This document shows positions 10,639 to 56,356 of a stretch of 57,698 nucleotides of DNA, piece by piece (position 1 is the first letter of the stretch; the number at the start of each line of letters is the position of its first letter). The notes beneath the pieces were generated by a model. That model was not told the origin of the DNA. It saw nothing but the letters and a program-made list of their open reading frames with translations, and searched no databases. The translations under genes and the position numbers were made by a program. The stretch comes from Deltaproteobacteria bacterium. GTDB lineage: Bacteria > Myxococcota_A > UBA9160 > SZUA-336. Location of the stretch: assembly GCA_016875225.1 (NCBI GenBank), contig VGRW01000016.1, positions 1-57,698 of the forward strand, in the 5' to 3' direction.

Positions 10639-10872
10639 ATGAGCCGCAGCGCAGACTGCAGGGGTGGCGATCGCCGCGCGAATTCGCGCGGCGTACCGCT
10701 GGAGCTGGTGATTGGCCGAGAGACGATTCACGTCTGGCTCGACGACGCTGGAATCCACTTCCGACATGCCGACGGTTCGTCCACCGAAGGGCACCTTCCC
10801 TGGTCGGTCGCGATCGCGATGTCGCTGATTCCCGCGAATTCGCCGCGAATGGGAACGATCGAGGCCGCGTAG
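10639..10872 (+). CDS. Small conserved-looking hypothetical protein
   Basis: A 77-residue protein starting at an ATG nine bases after GAGGG. The core reads LELVIGRETIHVWLDDAGIH, then a stretch ending LPWSVAIAMSLIP; alternating hydrophobic residues suggest a small beta sheet followed by a helix. There is no signal peptide or membrane segment. It ends six bases before the membrane-anchored kinase-like protein at 10878, so the two are probably one transcript and may work together. I do not recognise the family. Confidence 0.5.
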   Translation: MSRSADCRGGDRRANSRGVPLELVIGRETIHVWLDDAGIHFRHADGSSTEGHLPWSVAIAMSLIPANSPRMGTIEAA

Positions 10873-17824: not shown

Positions 17825-19021
17825 ATGCCAAATCCGCTTGCATTCCAGGGAGTTAACGAAATTACTCGGCTCGATGCGGAGGTCGGCGTCGAGCTCGATC
17901 GGCTGCGCGAGCGAGGCCTGCACCGGCGCCTTCGACGTGTCGAGGGGCTGCAGGCGCCGCGGATGCGCGTCGACGGTCGCGACTGCCTGATGCTCGCGGG
18001 CTCGAACTACCTCGACCTGGCCGGCGACGCGCGCGTGATCGCGGCCGCGCAGAGGGCCGCCGAGGAGTACGGCACCGCGGCGGCCGGCTCGCGCCTGATC
18101 AACGGGAACCTCGCACTGCACGAGGAGCTCGAGGGCGAGCTTGCCCGCTTCACCGGCCACGCGGCCGCGCTCGTGTTCAGCAGCGGCTACATGGCGAATC
18201 TGGGCGTGCTCGGCGCGCTCTGCGGCCCGGACGACGTGATCGTCTCCGACTCGCTGAACCACGCCAGCATCATCGACGCCTGTCGGCTCGCTCGCGCGCA
18301 GACGCGCGTCTTCGCCCACAACGATCCCGAGGACCTCGCACGCGTGGCCGCGGGACTGGTCGGATTCCGGCGCCGCGTGCTGGTAGCCGACGGCGTGTAC
18401 AGCATGGACGGCGACCGCGCACGCCTGTCCGAGCTCGTGCCGATCGCGCGCGACCACGAGATGATCGTCGTGCTCGACGATGCGCACGGTCTGGGCTGTC
18501 TCGGCGCGAGCGGCCGCGGTGCGAGCGAAGTGGAGGGCGTCGCGGTCGATCTCCTGATCGGGAATCTCGGCAAGGCGCTCGGCAGCTTCGGGGCGTTCGT
18601 CGCCTGCTCGACACGGGTGAGAGAGCATCTGGTGAACGCGTCGCGCAGCTTCATCTTCACCTGTGCGACCGCGCCGCCAGCGCTCGGCGCCGCGCTCGAG
18701 GCGCTGCGCATCGCGCAGTCCGAGCCCGAGCGCCGCAAGCTGCTGTTCGAACGCGCCGAGCAGCTTCGCGTCGGTCTGCGCTCGGCCGGCTACGACACCG
18801 GCGAGAGCACCACGCAGATCGTGCCCGCGATCGTCGGCGACAACGAAGCGGTGATGCGGCTCGCCGACGCCGCGCTCGAGCGCGGCGTGTACGCGCAGGG
18901 CATCCGCCACCCGTCGGTGCCGCACGGCACGGCCCGGATCCGCTTCACGCCCACCTGCGCGCACTCCGCGCAGGACGTCGCGCGGGTGATCGAGGTCTTC
19001 TCGGAGCTTCGCGCCAGATGA
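17825..19021 (+). CDS. bioF: 8-amino-7-oxononanoate synthase
   Basis: The 398-residue PLP enzyme condenses pimeloyl thioester with L-alanine in biotin synthesis. Landmarks are GSNYLDLAGD near the N-terminus, TAAAGSRLINGNLALHEELE, the aldimine-stacking region NHASIIDACRL, DDAHGLGCLG (PLP-ring Asp) and LIGNLGKALGSFGAF with the Schiff-base Lys. It heads a bioF-bioA-bioD operon; its stop overlaps the bioA start (ATGA). The ATG at 17825 has only a weak ribosome site. bioB, bioC and bioH are not in the window. Confidence 0.93.
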   Translation: MPNPLAFQGVNEITRLDAEVGVELDRLRERGLHRRLRRVEGLQAPRMRVDGRDCLMLAGSNYLDLAGDARVIAAAQRAAEEYGTAAAGSRLINGNLALHEELEGELARFTGHAAALVFSSGYMANLGVLGALCGPDDVIVSDSLNHASIIDACRLARAQTRVFAHNDPEDLARVAAGLVGFRRRVLVADGVYSMDGDRARLSELVPIARDHEMIVVLDDAHGLGCLGASGRGASEVEGVAVDLLIGNLGKALGSFGAFVACSTRVREHLVNASRSFIFTCATAPPALGAALEALRIAQSEPERRKLLFERAEQLRVGLRSAGYDTGESTTQIVPAIVGDNEAVMRLADAALERGVYAQGIRHPSVPHGTARIRFTPTCAHSAQDVARVIEVFSELRAR

Positions 19022-51289: not shown

Positions 51290-51316
51290 ATGTGGATAAT
51301 CCTGGATTATCCACAT
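51290..51316. repeat. Perfect 27-bp palindrome containing two consensus DnaA boxes
   Basis: Arms ATGTGGATAATCC (51290-51302) and GGATTATCCACAT (51304-51316) are perfect inverted repeats around a single T. Each arm holds TTATCCACA, the strict E. coli DnaA-box consensus (51291-51299 on the minus strand, 51307-51315 on the plus). The downstream arm overlaps the start codon of the DUF4143 ATPase. It is much more A/T-rich than its surroundings. Uses could be an operator for that gene, a replication-linked protein site, or the boundary of a transferred module. Confidence 0.85.
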
Positions 51317-52553
51317 GTGCATGTTTCACAGGCGTTGGATCGAGGCTGCGCTTCGCGGTCGCGTTTCGGCCAGCAAGGTGCGCATCCTGCTCGGCGCGCG
51401 GCAGACCGGGAAGACGGCGCTGCTTGCGAAGCTTCTGGCCGGCCCCGGCACGCACGTCGTGAACCTGCAGGACACGGGGCTGCGCCGCCGCTTCGAGGCC
51501 GACCCCGCGGCTTTCGCACGCGAGGTTCGGGCGCTGCCGCGCGGCGCCCGCAACGTCCTGGTCGACGAGATCCAGAAGGTTCCCGCGCTTCTCGACGAAG
51601 TGCAGGCGCTGTATGACGCCTCGCCATCGCGCTGGCAGTTCTTCCTGACGGGAAGCTCGGCGCGCCGACTCAAATCTCACTCCGCGAATCTGCTCCCCGG
51701 CCGCAGCCATCTGTATCGCCTCTTCCCGGTCAGTGCCTGGGAGCTGGCGCGCGAGGACGACCGCCCGGCACTCGCTCTGTCCGCGGGCTCGAGCGCTGGC
51801 CCCGCGCCGGAATTCCCGACGCGCTCGCTGGCGCGCACGCTGCAGCTCGGCTGCCTCCCCGGAGTCCGGGCGGAGCGTCCGGAGACCGCAAAGGCCACGC
51901 TCGCCGCGTACGTCGAGCACTACCTAGAGGAAGAGATCCGCCGCGAGGCGCTGGTGCGCGACGTCGGGCCCTTCATCGTGTTCCTCCGCCTGGCCGCGAT
52001 CGAGTCCGGCGGGCAGATCAACCTGGCGCGCCTCTCGCAGGAGAGCGGCATCCCCGCCAGCACGCTCAAGAACTTCTACCAGGTCCTGGTCGACACGTTC
52101 GTTGGCTACTGGATCCCTGCCTACTCCCGCCGCTCGCGCAAGCGCCTGCTCACCGCGCCCCGCTTCTATTTCTTCGACGTCGGCGTGCGAAATGCCGCGG
52201 CGGAGCTGCCGCAGTCCGGCCCGATCGCCGCCGAGCTCGCGGGTCCGCTTCTCGAGCAGTGGGTGGCGCAAGAGCTGGTCGCGCGCGCCGCTTACCTGGG
52301 CCGGGGCCAGCGCGTGAGTTTCTGGCGCACCACCTACGGCGTCGAAGTCGACTTCGTGTGGGAGACCCCGCGCGGAGACATCCCCATCGAGGTCAAGTGG
52401 ACCGAGCGCCCGCGTCCAGGCGACGCGCGCCACCTCGAGATCTTCCTCGACGAGTTCCCCTCGCGCGCCCGCCGTGGCCTGATCGTCTGCCGCTGCGAGC
52501 GCGCGCAGCAGCTCACCGACCGCGTCCGCGCGATTCCGTGGCACGACCTGTGA
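51315..52553 (+). CDS. AAA ATPase with DUF4143 domain (AAA_14 family)
   Basis: The 412-residue protein has the AAA_14 layout: short MFHRRWIEAALRGR opening, Walker A LLGARQTGKTALL, Walker B NVLVDEIQKVPALLDE, sensor FFLTGSSARRLKSH, then a DUF4143 domain with winged helix (LSQESGIPASTLKNFYQVL) and a nuclease-like fold end (VEVDFVWETPRGDIPIEVKW: the D, E and K of a PD-(D/E)XK-like site). The role is unknown; families are spread by transfer. Either ATG at 51315 or ATG at 51321 can be the start; the first lies inside the palindrome. No antitoxin or mobile gene adjoins. Confidence 0.88.
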   Translation: MCMFHRRWIEAALRGRVSASKVRILLGARQTGKTALLAKLLAGPGTHVVNLQDTGLRRRFEADPAAFAREVRALPRGARNVLVDEIQKVPALLDEVQALYDASPSRWQFFLTGSSARRLKSHSANLLPGRSHLYRLFPVSAWELAREDDRPALALSAGSSAGPAPEFPTRSLARTLQLGCLPGVRAERPETAKATLAAYVEHYLEEEIRREALVRDVGPFIVFLRLAAIESGGQINLARLSQESGIPASTLKNFYQVLVDTFVGYWIPAYSRRSRKRLLTAPRFYFFDVGVRNAAAELPQSGPIAAELAGPLLEQWVAQELVARAAYLGRGQRVSFWRTTYGVEVDFVWETPRGDIPIEVKWTERPRPGDARHLEIFLDEFPSRARRGLIVCRCERAQQLTDRVRAIPWHDL

Positions 52554-52584: not shown

Positions 52585-55500
52585 TCAGACCTCGGCGAAC
52601 AGGAACTCCAGATCATCACGCGAAAGGCTGCGGGCGAACGCCTCGTCTCCGAGCACGTCGCGCACGATCGCCTGCTTGCGCTCCTGCAGCTCGAGCACCT
52701 TCTCTTCGATCGTCCCGCGCGCGACCACAAGGTACGCGACGACCGTGCGCGTCTGGCCGATCCGGTGCGTTCGGTCGATCGCCTGCGCCTCGACCGCTGG
52801 ATTCCACCACGGGTCGAGCAGCACCACGTAGCTCGCGCTGGCCAGGTTGAGGCCGCTCCCACCGGCTTTGAGCGAGATCAGGAAGGCGCACGGCGAGGGA
52901 TCGTCCGTGAACTCCGCGACGACCTTCTCGCGCTTCACCGTCGCGCCGGTGAGCAGGTGCGAGCGGATGCCCTGGAGCGTGAGCTCGCGGCGCACAAGCT
53001 CCAGAAAGCGCACGAACTGCGAGAACACGAGCACCTTGTGGCCCTCCGCGACGAGCGGCTCGATCAGCTCGACCAGCGCCTCGAGCTTGCCGCTGCGCTG
53101 TGCGCTGCCGCCGCCGGCCAGCGCGGGGTGGCAGCAGATTTGTCGAAGGCGAAGCAGCGCGGCGAGCACCGCGATGCGCTTGCGCGCGTTCGCCTGCGCC
53201 GACGTCGCCCGGGCCCCGGCGATCGCCCTCGCGCGCGCGAGCTCGAGCGCGTAGCGCTTGCGCTGCTCGCCCGACAGCTCGCAGTCGCGCCGCTCCTCGA
53301 TCCGCGCCGGCAGCTCCGGCGCGACCTCCTGCTTCAGCCTGCGCAGCAGAACCGGTCGCAGGCGGGCGGCCAGCAGGGCGCGCGAGCGCGGCGCGGATTC
53401 GTCGCGCTCGAAGCGCGCCACGAAGGACTTGCGCGTGCCCAGGTAGCCCGGGTTCGCGAACTGCATCAAGCTCCAAAGGTCGAGCGGTCGGTTCTCGAGT
53501 GGAGTGCCGGTCATCACCAGCCGGTGTCGCGCTTCGAGCTCGCGAACCGCGCGCGACACTCCCGAGTCGGGGTTCTTCACGAACTGACCCTCGTCGAGGA
53601 TCGCGGCGTGAAGCGGCACGCCGCGCCAGGCTTCGATGTCGCGGCGCAGCAGCGAGTAGCTCGTGATCGCCAGGTCGCAGCGCTCGAGGGATCCGAGCCG
53701 CGCGGCACGCTCGGCTCCGCGCTCGAGCGCGAGCACGCGCAGCCCGGGCGCGAAGCGCTCGGCCTCGCGCAGCCAGTTGTGCGCGACCGAGGTCGGACAC
53801 ACGACCAGGCTCGGGCCTGCGGACGGCTCCAGCTCGCGCAGGTGCAGCAGCCACGCGAGCGCCTGGAGCGTCTTGCCCAGCCCCATGTCGTCCGCGAGCA
53901 GCGCGCCCATGCCGAGCGAGGAGACGTACGCGAGAAAGTCGACGCCCGAGCGTTGGTACGGCCGGAGCTTGCCGCGCAGGCCCGCGGGTCTCTTCACGCG
54001 CGGAACCCCCGCAAAGCGAGCCACGCGCTGCCGGAGCGCGCGCGCGTGCTCGGCGGCGGCGGGATCCACCGCGAGCCGCTGCAGGAGATCGAGGCTGCCC
54101 TCGCTCGCGCCGGCGAGCGCAAGCGCCCCGACGCGGCGCGGCCCCGCACCGGGCTCGACGCCCAGCTCGGCCAGCGCAGCGAGCAGCGCCTCCTGTTCCT
54201 CGCCCGCCGCGCGCCGCACCCAACCCGAGCGCAGGCGGACGAAGCGCTCGGTCGACGCCAGCAGCTGCGCGCGCTCCCCGTCGCTGAGCGCCGCAGCCTC
54301 GTCCTCCCAGGCGACGTCGATCTCGAAGAAATCGATTCCCGAAGGGGCGAGCGACGCTCGCACCCGGCGCGCCGCATCCGGCTCGAGCAGGCGCCGGACT
54401 CGCGGCGACGCCAGAACCGTGACCTCGCCGCGCGATTCCGCGACGGCGTCGGCCAGCTGCGCGAGCACCGCGCCGTTCACGGGCACGAACCAGCCGATCG
54501 TGTCCTTCGGGATTCGCGCGCCCGTTGCGCTCGCGAAGCGCGCGAGCAGTTCGTCGACGAAGCGCCGCGCAGGCGCGACCGCCGCCGGGTCGGGCTCTTC
54601 GAGCCCGATGCCCGCCTTCTCGTCGCCGTCGCTCGGGTGCTCGTGCCAACCGCCGCTCGCGCGCGCATCGAACTCGCGCGCGCCCGCGGGAAACGAGCCC
54701 TGCCGGTACCAATCCGGCGGTCCCGTGTGCGCCACGAGCCGAAGCTCGAGCGCGGCCTCGTCGACCAGATCGACAATGACCTGCGCCGTCACCGGAACGT
54801 GTCGCACGAGCGGCGCCAGGCTTCGCGCGAGCTCCGGTATGCGGCCTGCGAGTCGCCGCACGAGCGGAAGCACCTCGGCGCGAAGCTCGATCCCGCCGGC
54901 CAGCAGCGCGCTCTCGACCAGCTCGATCGGCGGCGCCGTCTCGACGCGAGCGAACCCGCCGTCCGCGGCGACCGCGGCCACCCGCGCCGCCACCCCGTCG
55001 CGCGTCCGCGCCGGCAGCACCAGCACGCGGTCGAGCCGCAGGCATCGCCCGTCGGCGAAGAAACAGTGCAGCGCGAGGCGCGGTGCCGCCGCGTCGCTCT
55101 CGAGCGCGGGCGCGATCCGGGCCGCGCCGGGCGCGAGGCGCACCGGCCCGCCGGGCACGAGCCCGGTCCTCTGCGCCAGCGCAGGATCCAGGTCCGCCGC
55201 GATGCTGAAGAGCGGGCTCTCCGCCGCGCGCTCGAGCAATCGGCGGGGGTCGGGCGGCGCCGCCGCGTAGTGCTGCGGGCGCTCCGAGAGGTAGCCGCCG
55301 TCGAGCACGAAGCGAAGCAGATCGCGCTCGTCGTCCGCCAGCACGTCGCGCCTGGAGTCCGCTTGGCGAAGCAGACCGAGGAGCGCGGATTCGGCGCGCA
55401 GCTCGTCGTGAATCTTCGGCGACGTGAGCCGCACGCGCGCGCCGAGCCGCACGCCGCCCCAGGTCGAAGTAAGGCAGAGCTCGAAACGCAATCGCCTCGC

Positions 55501-56184
55501 GAACCCCGGAGCCGAGCCGGCCGTCCAGGCGTCGAGCGCCTCGAGCGCACGCTCCGCGCTGCGGCGCGCGTTGCGCTCGGCCAGATCGCGCCGCGCCAGG
55601 AACGGCGCGAGCGCGGGCGGCAGCTCGAGCTGCCCCGCCCGCTCGATCTCGAACGCGAGCCGAAAGCAGCGGAGCTCCGGGTCCGCCTCTTCGAAGCAGC
55701 CGCGCAGCGCGTTGCGCAGCTCCCCGTACGCGAGCCGCGAGCCCACGGAATGCGCGAGCGCATCGAGCGCGAGCTCGGCGTGCCACGGTTCGCTCGCGCT
55801 CTGCACTCGCGCCACGATCTCCGCCGGCGTCGGCTCGGCCGGAGCGGCGCGTGCGCGGCGTTCGACGGCGCCCTCCACCTCGATCCCGCTCAGCGCCTCG
55901 AGGCCGAGCGCGTACAGGTGCTTGCAGTCCATGGTCATCGGGCAGCTGCAGCTCCCCAGCCAGCGCCCGCCCCCGAACGACCACTCGCACTCGTACGTCT
56001 CGGTGCCCTCGACGAGCGCGAACAGCACCTGCCCGTCGAACTCGATCTGACCCACGCGCCCGTCGCGCGCATACCGCGTTCCGCGCCCGCGGATCAGACT
56101 CGGAAACGCGCGGATGCCCTTCTCGAGGCTCCGCCGCTGATCCGCGGAGAGCGAGACCGGTGAGTCGCTAGCCGAAGACGTCAT
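52585..56184 (-). CDS. SWIM zinc-finger SNF2-family DNA translocase/helicase
   Basis: The 1199-residue protein has an N-terminal SWIM zinc finger (SCSCPMTMDCKHLYALGL, near residue 78), a long central region of ~650 residues without recognised motifs, and a C-terminal SNF2 ATPase (about 740-1199). Motif I is LLADDMGLGKTLQALA, motif II is LDEGQFVKN (DEGQ rather than DEAH), motif III MTGTPLENR, and motifs V-VI include KAGGSGLNLASASYVVLLDP and DRTHRIGQTRTV. Such proteins move along DNA or remodel bound proteins such as RNA polymerase. ATG at 56184 is preferred; ATG at 56235 adds 17 residues. It is divergent from the DUF6880 gene. Confidence 0.92.
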   Translation of the reverse strand: MTSSASDSPVSLSADQRRSLEKGIRAFPSLIRGRGTRYARDGRVGQIEFDGQVLFALVEGTETYECEWSFGGGRWLGSCSCPMTMDCKHLYALGLEALSGIEVEGAVERRARAAPAEPTPAEIVARVQSASEPWHAELALDALAHSVGSRLAYGELRNALRGCFEEADPELRCFRLAFEIERAGQLELPPALAPFLARRDLAERNARRSAERALEALDAWTAGSAPGFARRLRFELCLTSTWGGVRLGARVRLTSPKIHDELRAESALLGLLRQADSRRDVLADDERDLLRFVLDGGYLSERPQHYAAAPPDPRRLLERAAESPLFSIAADLDPALAQRTGLVPGGPVRLAPGAARIAPALESDAAAPRLALHCFFADGRCLRLDRVLVLPARTRDGVAARVAAVAADGGFARVETAPPIELVESALLAGGIELRAEVLPLVRRLAGRIPELARSLAPLVRHVPVTAQVIVDLVDEAALELRLVAHTGPPDWYRQGSFPAGAREFDARASGGWHEHPSDGDEKAGIGLEEPDPAAVAPARRFVDELLARFASATGARIPKDTIGWFVPVNGAVLAQLADAVAESRGEVTVLASPRVRRLLEPDAARRVRASLAPSGIDFFEIDVAWEDEAAALSDGERAQLLASTERFVRLRSGWVRRAAGEEQEALLAALAELGVEPGAGPRRVGALALAGASEGSLDLLQRLAVDPAAAEHARALRQRVARFAGVPRVKRPAGLRGKLRPYQRSGVDFLAYVSSLGMGALLADDMGLGKTLQALAWLLHLRELEPSAGPSLVVCPTSVAHNWLREAERFAPGLRVLALERGAERAARLGSLERCDLAITSYSLLRRDIEAWRGVPLHAAILDEGQFVKNPDSGVSRAVRELEARHRLVMTGTPLENRPLDLWSLMQFANPGYLGTRKSFVARFERDESAPRSRALLAARLRPVLLRRLKQEVAPELPARIEERRDCELSGEQRKRYALELARARAIAGARATSAQANARKRIAVLAALLRLRQICCHPALAGGGSAQRSGKLEALVELIEPLVAEGHKVLVFSQFVRFLELVRRELTLQGIRSHLLTGATVKREKVVAEFTDDPSPCAFLISLKAGGSGLNLASASYVVLLDPWWNPAVEAQAIDRTHRIGQTRTVVAYLVVARGTIEEKVLELQERKQAIVRDVLGDEAFARSLSRDDLEFLFAEV

Positions 56185-56356
56185 GGATCGGGCCGCTTCC
56201 TCACGGGCTTCGAAGGGGAGGTTCCCCGGAACCATACCCGCGTCGCGGAGGGAAGATCCAGCGCCGGGCGGGGCTGTGATCCAGCGAGCCCGCGTGGGAG
56301 ACTACGTACCCTGCAACGCGATCGACGGCGCGGGGTCCAAGGGAGGTGCCGATTCT

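Follow-up and report, generated by a model that had tools for sequence, protein, structure and literature searches.

A gene-specific palindrome at the start of an AAA_14/DUF4143 ATPase-nuclease gene is probably an operator for the protein's own winged helix

The DNA analysed here, referred to as the window, is a stretch of 57,698 nucleotides from a Deltaproteobacteria bacterium. It contains a gene for an ATPase-nuclease with a palindrome at its start. The features of this locus are listed below; residue numbers of the window protein are counted from ATG 51315.

51290–51316, no strand: 27-bp perfect palindrome following the family pattern, arms of 13 bp around the centre T51303, predicted operator of the ATPase gene
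51291–51299, reverse strand: TTATCCACA of the left arm, its match to the DnaA-box consensus considered coincidental
51307–51315, forward strand: TTATCCACA of the right arm, its match to the DnaA-box consensus considered coincidental
51308–51313, forward strand: TATCCA, weak candidate -10 with a poor match to the consensus, 7 nt before ATG 51321, proposed by analogy with TAATTT/TAATCT of the homologs L029/L030
51321–52553, forward strand: ATPase-nuclease gene of the AAA_14-wHTH-DUF4143 (PDC-S01) type, from profiles, the N-termini of homologs and the distance of the start to Walker A (-72), which is that of the family
51315–51764, forward strand: AAA+ ATPase domain, residues 1–150, Walker A GARQTGKT and Walker B DEIQ
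51960–52184, forward strand: winged helix-turn-helix (wHTH), residues 216–290, wing strands 264–267 and 283–286, the sole region that predicts the palindrome sequence
52056–52094, forward strand: recognition helix, residues 248–260, with 249 the best single predictor and 248 among the top five
52212–52550, forward strand: C-terminal part of DUF4143 with the PD-(D/E)XK residues E314, D346 and E359-x-K361

The gene probably starts at ATG 51321 and not at ATG 51315. This start is preferred because the nearest homologs, L029 and L030, begin with MFK.., which aligns with MFH.. of the window protein; its distance to Walker A is also that of the family. The palindrome had been described as covering the start codon, which holds for ATG 51315 only. 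Relative to the likelier ATG 51321 it probably spans -31 to -5, i.e. it ends 5 nt upstream.

The window protein matches AAA_14 with 77.1 bits (cut-off 27) and DUF4143 with 107.4 bits (cut-off 28.1), both above the curated cut-offs. All seven PDC-S01 profiles of PADLOC also match, the best being PDLC04790 (E 1.2e-75), which covers the whole length (residues 3–411). The Walker residues G27, G32, K33, D84 and E85 are intact, and so is the PD-(D/E)XK site, where E314, D346 and E359 are invariant and K361 is found in at least 90% of the sequences (85 sequences). The AlphaFold2 model (mean pLDDT 91) consists of an AAA+ domain, a helical linker, a winged helix with helices 217–229, 237–244 and 248–260 followed by the two wing strands, and a C-terminal part with the PD-(D/E)XK residues. 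A fold search with this protein gave no close solved structure; the best match was the P. abyssi Walker ATPase 2qen, followed by RuvB and Orc1/Cdc6.

Two more DUF4143 genes are found in the same genome, at G000:C121 807–1985 (L002) and G000:C13 976–2151 (L003). The start of one is preceded by a short palindrome of another sequence, TCTAAAG-N5-CTTTAGA, and none was found at the other. The convergent neighbour of the window gene (52585–56235, reverse strand) is an open reading frame of 1216 amino acids that reads like a SWIM/SNF2-type helicase. In sister genomes its best matches reach only about 41–49% identity, so the neighbourhood is not conserved.

The palindrome has the structure ATGTGGATAATCC-T-GGATTATCCACAT, in full ATGTGGATAATCCTGGATTATCCACAT, and both its perfect symmetry and the two perfect DnaA boxes claimed in the initial annotation are exactly as described. 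No other palindrome in the window combines perfect arms of at least 13 bp with a loop of at most 4. Its occurrence by chance is, however, less improbable than first claimed. As a bare palindrome it is only mildly surprising, as 19 palindromes with such arms and loops and of any composition arose when the full window was dinucleotide-shuffled 150 times, about 0.13 per window. It is non-random because it is AT-rich within GC-rich DNA, is placed at a gene start and follows a family-wide pattern. Two further perfect palindromes of the window, CGCCGCGCGAATTCGCGCGGCG and ACGCCGCGCTCGAGCGCGGCGT at 10672–10693 and 18867–18888, are GC-rich with 11-bp arms and are near chance level. Dispersed copies of the REP/RAYT type were not found, either for the palindrome in the genome of the window or for the subfamily motif described below in the genomes searched for it; each is a single copy per genome.

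As both arms are a perfect TTATCCACA, the two inverted boxes could bind the host initiator and thereby titrate DnaA or couple the gene to replication. However, neither the window nor the rest of the 3.87-Mb assembly contains a further copy, and several boxes conserved at homologous loci, as in clusters of the oriC or datA type, were not found in the window, the genome or the homologs. The palindromes of homologs are also unrelated in sequence. A scan of 84,980 species genomes with the pattern TGTGGATAATN{0,8}ATTATCCACA gave 44 stretches with a palindrome of the window type, and none of the 44 adjoins an AAA_14 ATPase, i.e. the same sequence elsewhere is unlinked to this family. A DnaA-titrating or regulatory site is accordingly extremely unlikely, and the match of the arms to the DnaA box is a coincidence of sequence. 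The same scan answers the proposal that the palindrome sequence always precedes AAA_14/DUF4143 genes: it does not. Absence of the sequence upstream of homologs had been put forward as grounds for giving up any link with the family, and absent it is; however, this is the wrong test, since the sites are gene-specific. For the same reason the search for the exact sequence fails, while a search for any palindrome at family starts succeeds.

Many of the 44 stretches are a hairpin in Acinetobacter located beside one conserved gene of 481 amino acids. Here, TGTGGATAAT-N6-ATTATCCACA lies about 40–55 nt past one end of the gene, whose product has the N-terminus M.FN.RY...LYHHQ (L145, L149, L152–L154, L156, L159–L163, L165, L169, L171, L172, L176–L179, L181 and L187). 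It is probably a conserved hairpin or terminator. In three Bacillota genomes (L151 7141–7167, L167 5056–5082 and L182 2566–2592), a perfect double TTATCCACA palindrome lies within the first codons of a gene of about 300–350 amino acids, where it reads VDN..DYP, so that two inverted DnaA-box matches are found in the coding start. We presume that this protein resembles YwlC/Sua5.

To describe the starts of the family, 295 ATPase genes were anchored at Walker A. They come from the phylum of the window, the phyla of two further reference genomes and a few other genomes; the labels Pseudomonadota and Actinomycetota of the taxon sets were assigned from the named species used as centres. Strong palindromes, i.e. 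those with a score of at least 10, cluster in the 100 nt around the start in all four taxon sets (27/147, 11/65, 13/67 and 6/16), compared with about 0–5 per 50-nt bin elsewhere along the genes. They are found at 37 of 186 ATPase starts but only at 10 of 229 neighbouring gene starts, which are rough calls, and at none of 186 shuffles (Fisher p=7e-7). When the family is collapsed at 50% identity, 17 of 113 representatives retain a strong start palindrome. The palindromes are AT-rich, 64% AT against 43% in the surroundings. In about half of the family genes no palindrome can be recognised at the start; some of these have direct repeats of 22–23 bp instead, and at others nothing was found. Start palindromes are frequent in AAA_14/DUF4143 genes, and their sequence is particular to each subfamily.

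The region before the start also contains a promoter-like signal. Promoters played no part in choosing the start codons. Of 273 genes, 56 have a TANNNT ending 6 nt upstream of the start and 16 have one ending 7 nt upstream, compared with about 7.5 at other positions. All three large taxon sets show this peak (18 of 54 genes in the Pseudomonadota set), and after clustering at 50% it is kept by 19 of 100 representatives against 3.5 elsewhere. Among 379 neighbouring starts (rough calls) there is no such peak, with 5 and 8 at these positions against a mean of 4.2. Aligned on the -10, a -35 TTG.AA appears at a spacer of 17 nt, and a Shine-Dalgarno core is found in just 4 of the 72 genes with TANNNT at 6–7 nt. 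The palindrome overlaps the core promoter in 102 of 130 genes. At the level of the family, a symmetric site is therefore located at the gene's own promoter beyond what is found by chance and at other gene starts, as would be the case for an autoregulatory operator. The natural reading is a promoter whose +1 would be the start codon, with an operator laid over it.

For the window gene itself, a promoter scan of the start gave no sigma-70-like match, and its -10 and -35 are not evident. The position of the palindrome agrees with the core promoter of the family while its sequence does not. The putative operator of the window gene is thus assigned because of the family pattern.

One subfamily has the site CCTTGCAA-(21)-TTGCAAGG (CCTTGYAA/TTRCAAGG), which is found in 23 genes from two phyla, as given by the taxon sets. 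The outer distance is 37 bp in 19 genes and 38 bp in 4, and in most of the 23 the site ends directly before the ATG or other start codon. The exact half-sites, searched in twelve genomes, are present in five, once each and at the ATPase gene. Ten plasmid homologs fetched afterwards (from Sphingobium, Rhizobium, Mesorhizobium, Aminobacter, Shinella, Bosea and Agrobacterium) all have this motif, or one closely similar to it, immediately upstream of the annotated ATG. The family ATPase gene directly adjoins repC of the repABC replication module on rhizobial plasmids (L446, L448 and L449), and in L448 a VapBC-type pair and a DEAD/DEAH helicase come before it. Other plasmid ATPase genes (L447 and L450) are found beside integrases and Fic genes. 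Phage decoy operators were also considered: scanning viral contigs for CCTTGCAA-N21/22-TTGCAAGG gave 42 matches, none before an ATPase, and those inspected are mostly inside phage genes, so they provide no evidence for decoys.

In another clade, the related half-site CTTGCAATTGGACG is arranged as direct repeats every 22–23 bp (L070, L079, L233 and L238; 46 in L234). Such repeats could not form a hairpin and could bind an array of proteins. As a separate observation, L011, L070, L079, L104, L106, L233, L234 and L238 belong to a clade where 22–23-bp direct repeats of CTTGCAATTGG.CGG precede the start. Here, a TACGAT/TACAAT follows one TTGCAA at a distance of one repeat, which is also a promoter-like spacing (18 nt).

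The palindrome could also act in the transcript, folding into an mRNA hairpin that hides the ribosome site or the start codon. The RNA of the window can form a 12-bp stem, and AAGG, the end of the right arm in the CCTTGCAA subfamily, adjoins the ATG. However, the fold of the window is no better than that of shuffles (z -0.97), and mismatches between arms are 28 G.T against 21 A.C, i.e. the G.T pairs tolerated by RNA are not significantly favoured. Both the sequence and the spacing of half-sites are conserved beyond mere pairing, the related half-site forms direct repeats, and where a leaderless promoter is recognisable the palindrome is mostly upstream of +1. We consider a hairpin very unlikely.

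The initial annotation had also considered a recombination edge of a transferred ATPase module. The palindrome would then border a mobile module, either as the edge left by recombination or insertion or as the target of the nuclease itself. Family genes are patchy, multicopy and often plasmid-borne, some beside integrases or repC, the intact PD-(D/E)XK site would allow for a nuclease target, and in the CCTTGCAA subfamily conservation ends at the outer edge of the palindrome, save a short AT-rich TTTAT. This last feature would, however, also result if promoter, operator and gene were transferred together. Further, the 3' end of family genes has no matching palindrome peak, the promoter elements coincide with the site, and no empty site was found in sister genomes, where the flanking helicase gene has no close ortholog. 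An edge or nuclease target is highly improbable.

The sequence of the palindrome follows the protein. Palindrome similarity rises with protein identity, with an excess over the symmetric null of about 0.3 at <25%, 2.6 at 50–60% and 6.2 at 60–75%, and at a protein identity of at least 40% pairs from different phyla are about as similar as pairs from the same phylum. Recent copies retain the arms and alter the spacers (L130/L311 at 92% identity, L097/L098 and L206/L209). The closest relatives of the window gene (37%) have just the GGATAATC/GATAAT core in common with its palindrome. Insulation of paralogs, i.e. diversification for orthogonality, was considered and rejected: palindrome pairs from the same genome are no more different than pairs from different genomes at equal protein identity.

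In a column scan, we asked whether residue identity predicts palindrome similarity after removing overall identity, using permutation tests that do not include a full phylogenetic model. For the first 92 genes, the top two alignment columns are 249 and 248, at the start of the recognition helix. With all 142 genes, column 249 is still first (p=0.04) and the top 15-residue window is 235–249 (p=0.02). By region, the wHTH alone is associated with the palindrome sequence (p=0.002; helices 235–260, 0/2000 permutations), while the AAA+, linker and nuclease regions show no association. A held-out set, made up of genes added once the first test was done, again shows an association for the wHTH only (p=0.0075); here the signal is in the wing and not in the recognition helix, and the max-window test is non-significant (p=0.14). 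The covariation signal is modest. Taken together, there is moderate evidence that the ATPase's own winged helix may read the palindrome.

Palindromic operators of separate repressors are common, so the site could belong to a host regulator and not to the ATPase itself. However, it follows the ATPase protein across phyla, differs between paralogs within one genome, is unique in the genomes tested and covaries with the ATPase's own wHTH, and we regard a host regulator as very unlikely. The palindrome sequence tracks the DNA-reading domain of the protein, and neither the host nor DnaA. Among the three readings first offered, DnaA titration and the recombination edge are not supported, whereas the family palindromes and the wHTH covariation support a predicted operator for the ATPase's own winged helix, in the unforeseen form of a gene-specific site.

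We suggest that the palindrome of the window is probably a gene-borne autoregulatory operator, which would be read by the ATPase's own winged helix and overlie a promoter of the family type. Binding, repression rather than activation, and the inducing signal are steps that we infer: (i) the ATPase-nuclease would dimerise or oligomerise, so that its own winged helix reads both half-sites; (ii) the site would lie over a sigma-70-type core promoter with +1 at or next to the start codon, giving a leaderless mRNA; (iii) an occupied site would block RNA polymerase, so that the ATPase-nuclease represses its own gene; and (iv) the gene would become active again once the protein leaves the site or adopts another state, e.g. 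on meeting invading DNA. It can further be speculated, although we find it rather unlikely, that the palindrome is a docking self-site that holds the ATPase-nuclease inactive and self-repressing. Invading DNA would then both derepress the gene and release the nuclease, and the site would be the sensor and safety catch of a one-gene defence unit.

Most likely, the palindrome of the window is an autoregulatory operator and exemplifies a family-wide organisation that would combine promoter, operator and gene in a portable unit. If each gene has a matched operator and a leaderless promoter, it would amount to an independent cassette of about 1.3 kb, able to do without a ribosome site of the host. 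Such a cassette may regulate itself in whichever host it enters, and this would help to explain the spread across phyla and the many copies per genome. The family also offers hundreds of natural protein-site pairs and a predicted reading head, consisting of the recognition helix and the wing.

The proposed arrangement resembles antitoxin-type autoregulation and the C proteins of restriction-modification systems, where a gene-borne DNA-binding protein controls its own promoter via inverted repeats. However, antitoxins and C proteins are separate regulator genes, while here one protein would combine ATPase, wHTH and nuclease.

By its full-length profile match and its domains, the window protein is like PDC-S01, which would give it a candidate role in defence. 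PDC-S01 (AAA_14 and DUF4143, ATPase-PD-(D/E)XK) is one of the candidate phage-defence singletons of PADLOC; PMC12988326, in its treatment of presence and phylogeny, reports it as the fourth most common defence across prokaryotes, and states that experimental validation is pending for most PADLOC candidates of the PDC kind. How the genes of a family reported among the commonest candidates are switched on appears unstudied, and in the literature searched no operator, leaderless promoter or autoregulation is reported for PDC-S01. A family member can be induced, as RNA of Thermus thermophilus TT_P0211, which has the same domain content (AAA_14, DUF4143), is up 6.6-fold with plasmid DNA when Argonaute is present (PMC4406477). 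RptR, the autoregulated repressor of a phage-defence island, represses defence genes from palindromic or repeated sites that overlap a -10 box (PMC12255303), and the family is similar in its candidate defence genes with such sites and predicted autoregulation. However, RptR is a separate protein, a small repressor whose 6-bp site, TAGCTA, is conserved among homologs (PMC12255303), whereas here the predicted repressor is the ATPase-nuclease itself, and its site is longer and differs in sequence from gene to gene.
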